Part shown: positions 6,849-59,710 of the stretch, in pieces
Layout of the letters: each line of letters starts with the position of its first letter
Numbering within the stretch: the first letter of the stretch is position 1
Source: Actinotalea subterranea
GTDB taxonomy: Bacteria; Actinomycetota; Actinomycetes; Actinomycetales; Cellulomonadaceae
Length of the DNA: 64,000 nucleotides
NCBI RefSeq assembly: GCF_008364845.1
Contig: NZ_VTTP01000005.1
Location: 62,001-126,000 of the forward strand
Reading direction: 5' to 3'
Notes under the pieces: generated by a model
Told to the model about the DNA's origin: nothing
The model's database searches: none
What the model saw: only the letters and a program-made list of their open reading frames with translations
Program-made: the position numbers and the translations under genes

Positions 6849-8553
6849 CGTCCCGCCTTCCGTCCAGGGCCCTGATGGCGTCCATGACACGCGCGAGCTC
6901 CCCGTCGAGCCCCATGTCGTCGCCGCGCGCGAGTGCCGCGCCGGCGACCACTGTACGTGCGCGCGCCGTGTCCCCGTCCCCCGGGGCGTCGTCGCCCGGG
7001 GCCCCGTGCGCACCGGCCGGTGCGACGCCCACCCTGACCCACAGGCGGCGGCGGGGGGTGAACAGGGAGATCGCGAGGCCGACGAGCGCGGCGACGGCGA
7101 ACACGAGGATCCACGTCAGTGCCGGGTCGTGGCGCAGGTCGAGCGCGACGAACCGCGGCAGGCCGTCCCACGTGAGGGACCCGAGCCCGTCGGGCAGCTC
7201 GACCGTCTGGCCGGCCTCGACGAAGAACGTCGTGGCCGTCCCGTCGTCCTCGACGGCCTGCGTCATGCGCGCCGTGTCGAGCTCGTACACGTTCTGCGGC
7301 ACGCCTTCGTCGAGGCCCAGGTCGCCGGACCAGACGGTGAGCACGAGGAGCGGGTTGTCCGGCTGCGGGTACACGGACCGCGCGCCGTCGGCGGTCACGA
7401 GCGCCGTCGGGAGCAGGTAGCCGACGATGCCGATCTGCTCGCCCGTGGAGACGTCGGGGACCTTGATGACGCCGCGGGAGCGGTACTGCGGGTCCTCGGG
7501 CAGGAACGGCACGGCGCCCGCGAACGCGATCTCGCCGGCCGCGTCGCGGACCACGACGTCGGGCGCGTAGCCGTTGCCCTGGAGATAGATCTTGGACCCG
7601 TCGACGGACAGCGGGTGGTTGACCTTGATCGTGGCGTCGCGCGGCTCGCGACCCGGCTCGGCCACTGTCACGTCGGCCGCGAAGTCGCGCGGCTTGGCGT
7701 CGGCGTCGGCCGTGAACTCGGCCGTGAACTCGTCGAGGGTGAGCGTGAACGGCGTCAGCGAGGACGCGTCGAACGCCGTGCCGGCCTCGAACGTGTCGTA
7801 GTCGGTGACGGTGTTCGCGAACGTGCGGCCCTCGACGAGGATCACCTGGCCGCGGTGGTGCAGCAGCTGTCCGGTCGCGACCGAGACGAGGATCCCGACG
7901 AGCGCGAGGTGGAAGAGGATGTTCCCGCTCTCGCGCAGGTAGCCCCGCTCCGCGGCGACGGTGAGCGCCCCGCTGGGCTCGGTCCCGGCGTGGGTGCGGA
8001 ACCGGGGCAGCGCCCGGACCGGCCCGACGAGCGTCCGCCGGACGGCGGCGGCGACCTCGGCGGGCGTCGCGGTCGTCACGAGCTCGTCGTGCACCGGGAA
8101 CCGGTCGAGCCGTCGCGGTGTGCGCGGGGGCCGGGCGCGCAGCGCACGGACGTGGACGCGCAGGCGGGGCAGGATGCAGCCGACGAGGGACACGAACAGC
8201 AGCAGGTACACGGCGGAGAACCAGGCCGACGCGTACACGTCGAAGAAGCCGAGGCGGTCGAGCCACGTGCCGAGCGTGGGGCTCTCGGCGATGTACCGCG
8301 CGACGCCTGCCGGGTCCTGCGGGCGCTGCGGGAGCACGGAGCCGGGCACGGCGACGACGGCGAGGAGCATGAGGAGCATGAGCGCGACGCGCATGCTCGT
8401 GAGCTGTCGCCACACCCAGCGCAGGGTGCCCCGGGCGCCGAGCCGCGGCAGCGTCGGCTGCTCGGCCGTGGTGGGCCCGCCGTAGGGGTCGTCGACGAGC
8501 CCCTCGGGCCGGTACGTGGCCGACGACGCCGGCCCTGCCTCGCGGCCCGCCAT
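6835..8553 (-). CDS. resB: cytochrome c biogenesis protein ResB
   Basis: ResB is the large partner of CcsB in system II heme ligation. The 572-residue protein has an N-terminal cytoplasmic stretch, a helix near residues 45-65 (TSMRVALMLLMLLAVVAVPG), a PQRPQDP loop, further helices near 95 and 185, a large extracytoplasmic domain and a last helix near 505. The ATG at 8553-8551 shares one base with the ccdA stop (TGATG), so translation is coupled. Confidence 0.93.
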   Translation of the reverse strand: MAGREAGPASSATYRPEGLVDDPYGGPTTAEQPTLPRLGARGTLRWVWRQLTSMRVALMLLMLLAVVAVPGSVLPQRPQDPAGVARYIAESPTLGTWLDRLGFFDVYASAWFSAVYLLLFVSLVGCILPRLRVHVRALRARPPRTPRRLDRFPVHDELVTTATPAEVAAAVRRTLVGPVRALPRFRTHAGTEPSGALTVAAERGYLRESGNILFHLALVGILVSVATGQLLHHRGQVILVEGRTFANTVTDYDTFEAGTAFDASSLTPFTLTLDEFTAEFTADADAKPRDFAADVTVAEPGREPRDATIKVNHPLSVDGSKIYLQGNGYAPDVVVRDAAGEIAFAGAVPFLPEDPQYRSRGVIKVPDVSTGEQIGIVGYLLPTALVTADGARSVYPQPDNPLLVLTVWSGDLGLDEGVPQNVYELDTARMTQAVEDDGTATTFFVEAGQTVELPDGLGSLTWDGLPRFVALDLRHDPALTWILVFAVAALVGLAISLFTPRRRLWVRVGVAPAGAHGAPGDDAPGDGDTARARTVVAGAALARGDDMGLDGELARVMDAIRALDGRRDDEPG

Positions 8554-45417: not shown

Positions 45418-45458
45418 CGCTGTGCTCCTCGCTGGTGGTGCTGGGGTGGGCCGGCTGA

Positions 45459-45561
45459 CCTGCCCCCGTCAGGGGCCAGGCGTCCCGGCCGGCCTGCCCC
45501 CCGTCAGGGGCCAGGTGTCCCGGCCGGCCTGCCCCCGTCAGGGGCCGGGCGTCCCGGCCGG
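45459..45561. repeat. three 34-35 bp direct repeats upstream of proC
   Basis: Three near-identical units (45459-45492, 45493-45527, 45528-45561) each contain GCCCC-CGTCA-GGGGC, able to form a small hairpin. A degenerate fourth copy reaches the stop codon of the leftward gene at 45575. Confidence 0.85.
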
Positions 45562-46664: not shown

Positions 46665-46883
46665 CCGGGCGCCGTCGCCAGCGGCCGCGTCCTCTCCCCA
46701 CCGCACCGGGCGCCGTGGCCGGGGGCCGCGTCATCTCCTTGCCGCACCGCGCGCCGCTGTCAGGGACCGCGTCATCTGCTTGCCGCTCCTTGCCGCACCG
46801 CGCGCCGCCGTCAGGGACCGCGTCCCGTCCGCCGGGTCCCAGGATCCGCGCCGGACCCCCTCCCGCCGCGCCGGGCGCCGTCA
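46665..46883. repeat. five degenerate repeats spreading from the ABC-2 permease stop
   Basis: Copies of CCG(G/C)GCGCCG..GTC with a trailing CCGCGTC start at 46665, 46706, 46747, 46798 and 46871, spaced 41, 41, 51 and 73 bp. The last copy contains the stop codon of the leftward ABC-2 permease. The gap 46508-46880 holds no gene. Confidence 0.7.
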
Positions 46884-49398: not shown

Positions 49399-49575
49399 CT
49401 CGGCGCTGCGGGGGCTCCGCGCCGCGGGGGCTCCCACCGCACGGCGACGCGCTGCGGGGGCTCCGCGCCGCACGGTGACGCTCTGCCGGGGCTCGGCGCT
49501 GCGGGGGCTCCGGGCCGCGCGGTGACGCGATGCGGATACGTCTTCGCGCCGCACGGCGACGCGCTGCGGGCGCGA
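49399..49575. repeat. GC-rich direct repeats between TetR and HNH genes
   Basis: Units close to CGCTGCGGGGGCTCCGCGCCGC occur near 49403, 49449 and 49495 (46-bp spacing), with a shorter copy near 49561. They lie in the gap 49315-49600, before the stop of the leftward HNH gene. No coding sense is evident. Confidence 0.7.
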
Positions 49576-56469: not shown

Positions 56470-57102
56470 TCACTCACCCAGGTCGAACACCACGGGCTCG
56501 CTGGTCGCGCCGAGCATCGTGACGACCGCGCTGTACGTGCCGGGCCGCGGCTCGGGCAGGCCCTGCGTGCAACCCTCGGCGGAACGGCCCCGCCCCCAGG
56601 GGACGAACGCGTCGCTGCGCGCACCCGGCTCGAGCAGGAGCAGCTGCTCGGGCGCCTCGGCCAGGCAGTCGCGCGAGCTCCAGATCCGGTCGGTGCCCGA
56701 CGTGATGAGGACCTCACGCTGCGCCTCGCCCATGTCGACGGTGCAACTCGCGGCGCCCGTGTTCGTCACGGCGAACGCGAACACCGGCTGCACGCCGGCT
56801 GCGTAGCTCCGCGCGTCGGCGGTGAGCGTGAGCGTCAGGTCCGTGCCGGCGCAGACCGTGGGCCCGGTGGCGCCCTCCTCGGGCGCCGCGGCGGCATCGT
56901 CGTCGGGCACGGTCGCGCCCTCCTCGACGGTTCCCTCGCCCGGCCCGTCCTGCCCGGCGTCGGCGTCACCACCGCCCCGCAGCGCGGAGAACGCGAACCA
57001 GGCCACGAGGAGCACGACGACGAGCGCCGCCAGGACGACCGCGCGACGCACCCAGTAGACGCGGTCCGGCTGGGGACCGACGGGACGCAGGACCGTGCTC
57101 AT
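56470..57102 (-). CDS. membrane-anchored extracellular protein, function unknown
   Basis: The 210-residue protein has one N-terminal membrane helix (about 19-40), an acidic Gly/Ala/Glu-rich linker, and a C-terminal beta-rich domain (LTLTLTADARSYAAGVQPVFAFAVTNTGAASCTVDMG) of the type seen in DUF4232-like proteins, with four cysteines likely paired. GAGGAGG precedes the ATG. It diverges from mutY. Confidence 0.72.
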   Translation of the reverse strand: MSTVLRPVGPQPDRVYWVRRAVVLAALVVVLLVAWFAFSALRGGGDADAGQDGPGEGTVEEGATVPDDDAAAAPEEGATGPTVCAGTDLTLTLTADARSYAAGVQPVFAFAVTNTGAASCTVDMGEAQREVLITSGTDRIWSSRDCLAEAPEQLLLLEPGARSDAFVPWGRGRSAEGCTQGLPEPRPGTYSAVVTMLGATSEPVVFDLGE

Positions 57103-57200
57103 CAGCTGCCCTCCTCGAGGTCAAGGTAGGTCCTGACGGCACATTCCGGGCGGAGCCGCGCCGTGCGTCGCGAGGCACCTCGATCAGGCATGATCTGCGG

Positions 57201-58091
57201 GTGCAGCATCCGCTCGTCGCACCGGTCGTCACGTGGTTCGACGCGCACGCCCGCGACCTCCCGTGGCGTGCCCCCGACCGGACGCCCTGGGGTGTCCTCG
57301 TGAGCGAGGTCATGCTCCAGCAGACGCCCGTGCAGCGGGTCGAGCCCGCGTGGCGCGCCTGGATGGAGCGCTGGCCCACGCCCGCCGACCTCGCGGCCGC
57401 GACGCCCGCCGACGTGCTCCGAGCGTGGGACCGCCTCGGCTACCCCCGCCGGGCGCTGCGCCTCCAGGAGTGCGCACGGGCCGTCGTCGCGCTGCACGAC
57501 GGCGACCTGCCCACCGACACCGTGCAGCTCCTCGCCCTCCCCGGTGTGGGCACGTACACCGCCGCCGCCGTGACGGCCTTCGCGCACGGCCGCCGCGCCG
57601 TCGTGCTCGACACGAACGTGCGCCGCGTGCTGGCCCGCACCCTCGACGGCCAGGCCCTCCCGCCACCTCACCTGGGCGCCGCCGAGCTCCGCCGCGCCGA
57701 CGACGTCGTGCCGCCCGACGACGCCACCGCGACGCGGTGGAACGCTGCGGTCATGGAGCTCGGCGCACTCGTCTGCACCGCGCGCGCCCCACGATGCACG
57801 GACTGTCCCGTCGCCGGGCTCTGCGGCTGGCGCGCCGCGGGCCACCCCGCCGACGCGCATGCCGACCGACGCCGACGCCAGGCGTGGGCCGGGACCGACC
57901 GGCAGGCGCGCGGACGAGTCATGGCCGTGCTGCGCGCCACCGACGCACCGACCACCGAGACGGACCTCGCCCAGCACTGGCCCGACGACGCGCAACGCGC
58001 CCGGGCGCTCGCCTCGCTCGTCGCCGACGGGCTCGCCGAGGCCCACGAGCCCGTCCCCGGCGGGCCCCGCACCTACCGGCTGCCCCGATGA
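57201..58091 (+). CDS. mutY: A/G-specific adenine glycosylase MutY
   Basis: MutY removes adenine opposite 8-oxoguanine. The 296-residue protein has SEVMLQQTPVQRVEPAW with the catalytic Glu, the helix-hairpin-helix LPGVGTYTAAAV, the catalytic Asp in VVLDTNVRRV, and a 4Fe-4S site C-x6-C-x2-C-x5-C (CTARAPRCTDCPVAGLC). It is shorter than E. coli MutY and lacks a clear C-terminal NUDIX-like domain, as in several actinomycetes. GTG 57201 lies 6 nt after CATGAT, a possible leaderless start. Its stop begins the mini-ORF ladder. Confidence 0.92.
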   Translation: MQHPLVAPVVTWFDAHARDLPWRAPDRTPWGVLVSEVMLQQTPVQRVEPAWRAWMERWPTPADLAAATPADVLRAWDRLGYPRRALRLQECARAVVALHDGDLPTDTVQLLALPGVGTYTAAAVTAFAHGRRAVVLDTNVRRVLARTLDGQALPPPHLGAAELRRADDVVPPDDATATRWNAAVMELGALVCTARAPRCTDCPVAGLCGWRAAGHPADAHADRRRRQAWAGTDRQARGRVMAVLRATDAPTTETDLAQHWPDDAQRARALASLVADGLAEAHEPVPGGPRTYRLPR

Positions 58092-58178
58092 CACCGACCG
58101 ACCCGCGGCTGGCCCGATGACACCGACCGACCCGCGGCTGCCCCGATGACGCCACCCGACTCAGGCCCGGCCCGATGA
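58084..58178 (+). other. ladder of three overlapping 10-residue mini-ORFs in a 29-bp tandem repeat
   Basis: The unit CCCGATGACACCGACCGACC plus CGCGGCTG begins at 58084 and 58113 with a diverged third copy at 58142 (29-bp period). Each copy carries ATGA, so mini-ORFs 58088-58120 (MTPTDPRLAR), 58117-58149 (MTPTDPRLPR) and 58146-58178 (MTPPDSGPAR) each overlap the next by 4 nt. The first overlaps the mutY stop and the last overlaps the kinase start at 58175. The frames are read directly; translation is inferred. Confidence 0.8.
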
Positions 58179-59098
58179 CCGTCGAGATCCCGCCGACATT
58201 CCTCGCGCACGCCGCCCGCGGGGCCGCGTGGCAGGAGTGGCTGGACGCCCTCCCCCGCCTGCTCCGCGACGTCCTGACCGGGTGGGAGCTCACCCCGGAC
58301 GGGCAGGCCCGCCACGGCGAGTGCGCGATCGCCGTCCCGGTGCGCACACCTGAGGACCGGCCCGCGGTGCTCAAGCTCACCTGGCCGCACTGGGAGGCGC
58401 GCACGGAGCACGTCGCGCTGCAACGGTGGCACGGCGACGGCGCCGTCGAGCTGCTGCGCGCCGACCCCCACCACCTCGCGCTGCTCCTCGAGCGCGCCCA
58501 CCCGACCGACCTCACGGCGCTCGACGACGTCGAGGCGTGCGCGGTCGTCGCCGGCCTGTACCCGCGGCTCCACGTCCCCGCACCGCCCCAGCTGACGACC
58601 CTCTCGTCGTGCGTGGCACGGTGGACCGACGAGCTCGCCGCCCTGCCCCGCAGCGCACCCGTACCGAGACGCTACGTCGAGCAGGCCGTCAGCCTCGGCC
58701 GTGCGCTCGCCGCCGACCCCGCCACCGACGGCACCCTGGTCCACACCGACCTGCACTACACGAACGTCCTGGCGGCGGACCGCGAACCCTGGCTCGCGAT
58801 CGACCCCAAGCCGTTGTCCGGCGACCCGCACTACGAGGTCGCACCACTCCTGTGGAACCGGTGGGACGACGCCGCCGCGTCGGGCGACCCGCGCTGGGCT
58901 GTCCGCGCACGGCTCGACACGGTCGTGGGGACGGCTGGCCTCGACGCCGACCGGGCCCGGGACTGGGTCGTCGTGCGCTGCATGTGCTTCGCGCTGTGGA
59001 CGCTCGCCGACGCCGAGCACAGGCCCGGCGGGCTCACCTCGGACGACCGCCGCGCCCTGACCGTCGCGGTCGCCGTCGTCAAGGCCGTGCAGGACTGA
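58175..59098 (+). CDS. aminoglycoside/hydroxyurea phosphotransferase-family kinase (APH(6)-like)
   Basis: The 307-residue protein has the kinase-like Brenner motif HTDLHYTNVL (His190, Asp192, Asn197) and the metal-binding AIDPKPLSGDPHYEVAPLLWNR (Asp210), typical of the APH(6)/streptomycin kinase family (PF04655). Many chromosomal members have no proven resistance role, so the substrate is open. The start overlaps the last mini-ORF by 4 nt. It is transcribed with mutY. Confidence 0.85.
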   Translation: MTVEIPPTFLAHAARGAAWQEWLDALPRLLRDVLTGWELTPDGQARHGECAIAVPVRTPEDRPAVLKLTWPHWEARTEHVALQRWHGDGAVELLRADPHHLALLLERAHPTDLTALDDVEACAVVAGLYPRLHVPAPPQLTTLSSCVARWTDELAALPRSAPVPRRYVEQAVSLGRALAADPATDGTLVHTDLHYTNVLAADREPWLAIDPKPLSGDPHYEVAPLLWNRWDDAAASGDPRWAVRARLDTVVGTAGLDADRARDWVVVRCMCFALWTLADAEHRPGGLTSDDRRALTVAVAVVKAVQD

Positions 59099-59125
59099 CG
59101 GACGGCCCCCCGCGACGCGAGCCGG

Positions 59126-59710
59126 CTACAGCTCGAGGAGCATGCGCGTGTTGCCGAGGGTGTTCGGCTTGACCCGCGCGAGGTCGAGGAACTCCGCGAC
59201 CCCGTCGTCGTGCGAACGGAGCATCTCCGCGTAGACGTCGGCGTCGACGGGGGTCCCGGCGATCGGGTGGAAGCCGTGCGCCTCGAAGAACGCGACCTCG
59301 AACGTCAGGCAGAACAGGCGGCCCAGCCCGAGGGCGCGGGCACGCTCGACCAGCACGTCGAGCAGCGCGTGCCCGACGCCGCGGCCGCGCCACGCGGGAT
59401 GCACGGCGAGCGTGCGGACCTCGGCCAGGTCGGACCACAGGACGTGCAGCGCACCGCAGCCGATGACGGCCGTCGTCTCGTCCTGCGCGACCACGAACTC
59501 CTGGACGGCCTCGTAGTACCCGACGAGCTCCTTGGGCAGCAGGATCCGCTCGTCCGCGTAGGGCGTGACGAGGTCCCGGATCTCGCGGACGTCGCGCGGG
59601 AGGGCGGCGCGCACCGAGAACGGCTGCACAGGTGCGGACGCAGTCGCGGACGCAGGCGCAGGCGCGCCCGCCGGGTTCGTCCGGCCGCTCAGGCCGCTCG
59701 CTGGGCTCAC
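59126..59710 (-). CDS. argA: amino-acid N-acetyltransferase, mycobacterial ArgA type (GNAT)
   Basis: The 194-residue GNAT protein ends in VKPNTLGNTRMLLEL, the closing segment of short actinobacterial N-acetylglutamate synthases such as Rv2747. The acetyl-CoA site is VRTLAVHPAWRGRGVGHALLD and the core has PKELVGYYEAVQEFVV. It likely makes N-acetylglutamate at the start of arginine synthesis. The start is GTG 8 nt after TAGCGT. The first 30 residues are a low-complexity extension; no other arg gene is nearby. Confidence 0.83.
   Translation of the reverse strand: MSPASGLSGRTNPAGAPAPASATASAPVQPFSVRAALPRDVREIRDLVTPYADERILLPKELVGYYEAVQEFVVAQDETTAVIGCGALHVLWSDLAEVRTLAVHPAWRGRGVGHALLDVLVERARALGLGRLFCLTFEVAFFEAHGFHPIAGTPVDADVYAEMLRSHDDGVAEFLDLARVKPNTLGNTRMLLEL

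Follow-up and report, generated by a model that had tools for sequence, protein, structure and literature searches.

In the window, the 64,000-nucleotide stretch of DNA analysed here (72.9% GC), a mutY-type gene, 83 nt of 29-bp units, and a gene for a PF04655 kinase follow one another on one strand. The first gene, encoding a mutY-type A/G-specific adenine glycosylase (57201..58091, forward strand), ends in a TGA stop at 58089-58091. Its product was recognized by the Pfam HhH-GPD model (5.3e-18) and by NCBIfam mutY (1.6e-57), the latter at 195 bits, under the cutoff of 286.5. The second gene (58175..59098, forward strand) encodes a kinase of 307 amino acids that matched PF04655 (APH_6_hur; 1.8e-37) at 129.5 bits, above the gathering cutoff of 27. 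Its best model in NCBIfam was APH_6 (APH(6)-I equivalog NF012171), which it matched at 145.4 bits, below the cutoff of 325. Judged by these profile scores, the predicted kinase is a distant member of PF04655 that falls under the NCBIfam APH(6) cutoffs. Its ORF is intact and conserved, with a coding-type GC of 0.79/0.53/0.95 by codon position. The ATG at 58175 is the only in-frame ATG, GTG, or TTG upstream of the conserved core of the kinase, and the frame is closed by a stop at 58118-58120.

Four ATGA motifs, each 29 nt from the next (58088, 58117, 58146, and 58175), enclose three ORFs of 10 residues between the two genes, all on the forward strand. Mini-ORF 1 (58088..58120; MTPTDPRLAR) begins with an ATG that overlaps the mutY stop, and mini-ORF 2 (58117..58149; MTPTDPRLPR) begins in the same way at the stop of mini-ORF 1. 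Mini-ORF 3 (58146..58178; MTPPDSGPAR) lies in a diverged unit; its ATG overlaps the stop of mini-ORF 2 and its TGA overlaps the kinase ATG. All three frames are open and ATG-started, and each TGA sits within the next ATGA. The ladder leading from mutY to the kinase was thus found in the sequence and at the positions given by the original prediction.

The underlying repeat was detected by TRF as a tandem array of 2.6 near-identical copies (58077..58150, forward strand; period 29, 95% matches) that begins in the last codons of mutY. Units 1 and 2 are 28/29 identical, i.e., one base apart. Unit 3 is identical to unit 1 at 21/29 positions, a value reached by 0.3% of ungapped shuffles in which ATGAC was held fixed, and 1.1% of such shuffles reached its identity to unit 2. 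When the 25 nt after ATGA were compared by local alignment, unit 3 was not separable from shuffles (p 0.21). Unit 3 is therefore likely, though not certain, to be a diverged copy of units 1 and 2. Two near-identical copies and one diverged copy had been proposed; the near-identical pair is plain, and the kinship of the third is likely. Similarly, the proposed peptide pattern MTPTDPRLxR fits peptides 1 and 2, whereas peptide 3, with four and five of its ten residues different from theirs, falls outside it.

Short tandem repeats are prone to mis-assembly and the locus is represented by one assembly only, which raises the question of whether the array length is wrong. We regard such an artefact as very improbable, as the whole array spans about 98 bp, its units differ by one and eight bases, and it sits in a contig of 256 kb.

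Simulations were used to judge how much of the ladder chance could produce. In 200 Markov sequences, the mean number of chains of three NTGA-linked mini-ORFs with any spacing was 1.44 per 64 kb; the window has two, one of which is the ladder. Given that three-step chains with unequal spacing are common by chance, we rejected the ladder as an improbable pattern per se. Three equal steps, on the other hand, were absent from 300 simulated 64-kb sequences, and two equal steps were found 0.51 times per 64 kb in simulation versus 4 times in the window, two of these within the ladder. The other two equal-step, two-step NTGA chains of mini-ORFs lie at +40770 and -30897, have steps of 17 and 14 nt, and look intergenic by eye. 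Of the relays that connect a gene-like stop with a gene-like start, this ladder was the only one with equal steps (2.46 Mb including the window plus 0.4 Mb of sampled family DNA, genes called with a crude caller). A loose triple-ATGA pattern occurred at no fewer than 195 places in the same genome versus at least 20 for the reversed pattern, which is a poor control. The window also holds tandem arrays at 45451-45561, 46665-46777, and 49399-49528, with periods of 34, 41, and 47 bp.

The feature is real as a tandem duplication, and the ladder is a consequence of that duplication. If a start lies at i, the overlapping stop lies at i+1, and a tandem copy of length d places the copied stop at i+1+d, which is in frame with the start when d = 3n+2, provided that no stop falls inside the copied stretch. 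The 29-bp period is of this form. Any 3n+2 tandem copy across an NTGA junction thus yields mini-ORFs, unless an internal stop intervenes, and keeps the overlaps without design. The original prediction had stressed that the duplication preserves every stop/start overlap. All four ATGA motifs are indeed rebuilt, but this is no sign of design since the 3n+2 length suffices.

We then compared the mutY-kinase junction among relatives. A genus search covered 19 genomes including that of the window and returned a kinase match in 16, i.e., in 15 relatives, the match being absent in G005, G013, and G015. Two of these 15 junctions were unreadable (L017, with a distant 38% match and without a mutY match, and L011, whose contig begins within the kinase), leaving 13; the contig of L009, one of the 13, carries just part of mutY. 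At every one of these junctions, an ATGA or GTGA combines the mutY stop with an in-frame start of the kinase. A family search of 221 genomes gave matches in 58 outside the genus, and loci from 15 of the 58 were examined. In the two loci of a second, sister genus (L033 and L034), mutY adjoins the kinase with a direct ATGA overlap. No mutY match was present in the stretch examined around the kinase in L035-L047 (13 loci) or L018-L032 (15 loci from named genomes). As an arrangement, the pair is therefore adjacent with a -4 nt overlap in the 13 same-genus relatives and in the two loci of the second genus.

No additional 29-bp unit or ladder was found at any of these 15 readable junctions. Ten of the 15 have a further in-frame GTG or ATG slightly downstream of the overlap; in these the kinase likely, though not provably, starts at the overlap itself. 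The ancestral junction was probably one direct NTGA overlap. Given that direct overlaps were found in 15/15 readable relatives, the ladder represents an 87-bp gain seen only in the window genome. A comparison of copy number among relatives had been proposed together with the ladder; it returned a direct NTGA overlap throughout and no other number of units.

This result bears on the proposal that the number of 29-bp units is a tunable setting under selection, in which each re-initiation loses ribosomes, unit number sets kinase output, and strains differ. The near-identity of units 1 and 2 may point to a recent change in the array or to ongoing homogenisation, as this proposal would have it. Nevertheless, zero units in 15/15 readable relatives, with one genome per species, speak against copy number as a setting, and we consider the proposal quite unlikely. 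It is also extremely unlikely that the 10-residue peptides are produced and act in their own right. Their frames are open and start with ATG, but none of the 15 readable junctions encodes them, copying of the junction accounts for peptides 1 and 2, and peptide 3 differs from these at four or five residues. Readthrough of the mutY stop, which would continue in frame for 29 codons (3 x 29 = 87) and terminate at the ATGA of the kinase, was rejected because several relatives' mutY share a YRLP-type tail; the mutY C-terminus in the window, YRLPR*, resembles YRLPG* or YRLPS* in these relatives.

The source of the repeated DNA was also investigated. The array starts with the last bases of mutY itself (CGGCTGCCCCGATGAC). 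Beyond ATGAC, the unit has no likeness to the present kinase start (p 0.63), and derivation from that start is unsupported. The DNA encoding the longer kinase N-terminus of G017 (L005) matched the unit in 21/24 columns, a score equalled by 11 of 100000 shuffles and above all 649 control gene starts. G017 was compared after a weak match had been seen there and is the best of 15 junctions, which brings the corrected figure nearer to 0.002. The match of L006 was weaker (1113 of 100000 shuffles), and the other 13 junctions had none. One possible history is that a kinase N-terminal extension like that of G017 was frameshifted, that the kinase was kept via an inner ATG, and that the unit was then copied. 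The matches suggest, at lower strength than the duplication itself, that the unit DNA may descend from such an extension. The kinase tree groups G012 and G008 with the window (support 96/99), a grouping that the mutY tree does not resolve. Because the kinases of G012 and G008 have no N-terminal extension, and the unit is unlike the present kinase start, an origin from an extension is a tentative candidate.

Initiation signals around the ladder are weak. Anti-SD pairing at the ladder and kinase starts ranged from -1.1 to -2.8 kcal/mol (-2.8 at 58175) versus a median of -6.35 at 378 direct junctions, and neither the kinase start nor any ladder start has a strong Shine-Dalgarno match. The start of mutY itself (57201) also pairs weakly (-2.6 kcal/mol). 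Among relatives, 11 of 15 kinase starts have anti-SD pairing weaker than -4.1 kcal/mol; G012, the closest relative, pairs more strongly (-6.0). Coupling with little SD help therefore looks common for this gene pair. The predicted RNA fold of the region is no more stable than those of shuffles (z +1.17), and 57000-59300 had no Rfam match at gathering score.

The kinase could be uncoupled from mutY, relying on a promoter of its own or on de novo initiation, with the ladder as an inert spacer. The 83 nt leave room for a promoter, and a region of mycobacterial interspersed repetitive units (MIRUs) in senX3-regX3 is reported (PMC4213456) to drive regX3 independently of senX3. However, no sigma-70-like promoter was found in 57900-58250, where actinobacterial promoters may escape such a search, and the anti-SD pairing at 58175 is weak, although the equally weak start of mutY means that initiation there is possible. 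On this evidence we judge an uncoupled kinase unlikely.

If the kinase is coupled, the gap matters. According to PMC10666635, a gap of +38 nt reduced re-initiation by 80-90% or abolished it in three E. coli gene pairs, a gap of about 22 nt abolished it in Haloferax, and 15 nt of upstream gene were enough for two E. coli pairs. If a gap abolishes re-initiation here as published, the kinase would be coupled to mutY only via the relay. Some studies found coupling over long gaps (cited in PMC10666635), and in another, cited in PMC12548453, spacing up to +25 nt made no difference; such results would make the relay less necessary. The stop/start overlap typical of -4 nt coupling, NTGA, is present at all four junctions as ATGA, and coupling may occur at each of them. 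Stepwise re-initiation, as originally predicted, appears to be the most plausible route to the kinase, given the single kinase start, the weak SD pairing, and the intact kinase ORF.

The ladder is related to several known systems. MIRUs were reportedly first described in a 1997 paper. The literature reports a MIRU small ORF coupled at -4 nt (PMC12548453), a MIRU copy number that differs between strains (PMC3635867), and tandem MIRUs between senX3 and regX3, one strain having three 77-bp units and another two 77-bp units and a 53-bp one (PMC4213456). The difference between strains would be in keeping with a unit number that tunes kinase output. Like MIRUs, the units described here lie at a gene junction with a small ORF at -4 nt, and they are in tandem as in senX3-regX3; by our arithmetic, 77 and 53 are also 3n+2, as is 29. 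In contrast to MIRUs, which are interspersed and thought to be mobile, the unit is 29 bp rather than 53 or 77 bp long, occupies one locus, and starts with the last codons of its host gene.

A search with the 98-bp array against the 19 genus genomes (E up to 1) gave no credible dispersed copy among the matches listed. The array's own locus scored 1e-45, and the next match listed in the same genome 0.053. Among the matches listed, the best elsewhere (4.6e-6, G015) is a GC-rich repetitive tract by eye, and three further ones had E between 5e-4 and 8e-4 over 27-41 query bases. The exact unit pattern had 3 matches in the genome, all at the ladder locus. Because the matches listed include no credible interspersed copies, we do not call the array a MIRU, although it would work like a MIRU array. 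The plain -4 nt termination-reinitiation overlap (ATGA/GTGA) is the case of the relatives' junction; the ladder repeats the same motif four times and differs in the three additional mini-ORFs between mutY and the kinase. The proposed role, ribosome delivery only, also resembles a short upstream ORF that delivers a ribosome downstream, the general case in PMC12548453, except that the ladder follows a full gene and consists of three short ORFs in a row. No such ladder was described in the titles and abstract openings listed by literature searches on coupling, overlaps, tandem duplication, repeats, and short ORFs.

To see how the ladder compares with relays elsewhere, 2.46 Mb (the window plus 120 sampled stretches) was scanned with a crude GC-based gene caller. 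Of its 2192 gene-like stops, 378 overlapped a start directly and 42 led into relays with one to three mini-ORFs. Among 68 pairs within 130 nt, 40 relays were observed versus 33.6 expected from shuffled spacers; since this is near the shuffled expectation, a relay alone is no evidence of use. The final starts of these 40 relays have strong SD-like pairing (median -7.45), unlike the kinase start of the ladder. NTGA-to-NTGA spacers of 3n+2 outnumbered those of 3n+1 by 29:10 in the first sample (p 0.013 and 0.099 versus two controls) and by 9:3 in a 0.4-Mb replicate, where the excess was not significant (p 0.70 and 0.29). When pooled (L051-L190 plus the window), the ratio was 38:13, with p 0.011 versus NTGA to non-NTGA pairs and 0.050 versus other stops. 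The excess is a weak hint that relays might be kept by selection, as a tunable unit number would require, but it was found post hoc and serves as a lead only. General selection for relays was not supported, with a weak excess in the sample and a non-significant one in the replicate.

Repeats at NTGA sites gave a second weak hint in the same direction: of 13 rows in 1.26 Mb, 8 have a period of 3n+2, 5 of 3n, and none of 3n+1. However, the ladder itself supplies two of the 3n+2 rows, and at least two of the upstream frames look spurious; one 3n row lies in the window at 8369. At none of six inspected repeat places did equal steps lead on to the next gene. L090 holds what looks like a genuine gene pair, joined by a relay of two unequal steps. 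In G012 (L069, minus strand from 14926), a gene that looks MarR-type by eye has at its end three GTGA sites with a 17-bp spacing and two identical units. The start of the following gene appears to lie farther downstream, preceded by an SD-like run; this suggests that arrays of this kind can form without any part in coupling.

We favour, as the probable reading, that the ladder is a by-product of duplication that has been tolerated because ribosomes are able to step from overlap to overlap. A short tandem duplication across the coupled junction may have arisen by replication slippage, or by unequal crossing between CGGCTGCCCCG at the mutY end and its near copy 29 bp further along. Three units of 29 bp, of which the third has diverged, would have been gained in this way, and each rebuilds ATGA because 29 is 3n+2. 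A ribosome finishing mutY would re-initiate at the successive overlapping ATGs and reach the kinase, so that this termination-reinitiation relay bridges 83 nt that might otherwise weaken or break coupling. The array would be tolerated because the relay still delivers ribosomes to the kinase; the peptides would be incidental, and the kinase yield would probably be equal to or below that from a direct overlap. The array would thus be MIRU-like in its working, but home-grown and confined to a single locus.

A broader view is that 3n+2 duplications of local DNA at gene junctions, rather than mobile repeats, form copy-number-variable, MIRU-like relays that keep, and perhaps tune, operon coupling, and that these are quietly selected across GC-rich actinobacteria; we hold it to be speculative and doubtful. 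At the locus itself, a 3n+2 duplication can be coupling-neutral and may therefore be spared by selection, and a duplication of this length across an ATGA junction suggests a simple origin for MIRU-like elements. The ladder furthermore offers a natural test case for the disputed question of whether a ribosome depends on an overlapping start or is able to scan across a long gap, as the same 83-nt gap may be compared with the relay intact and with its frames broken.
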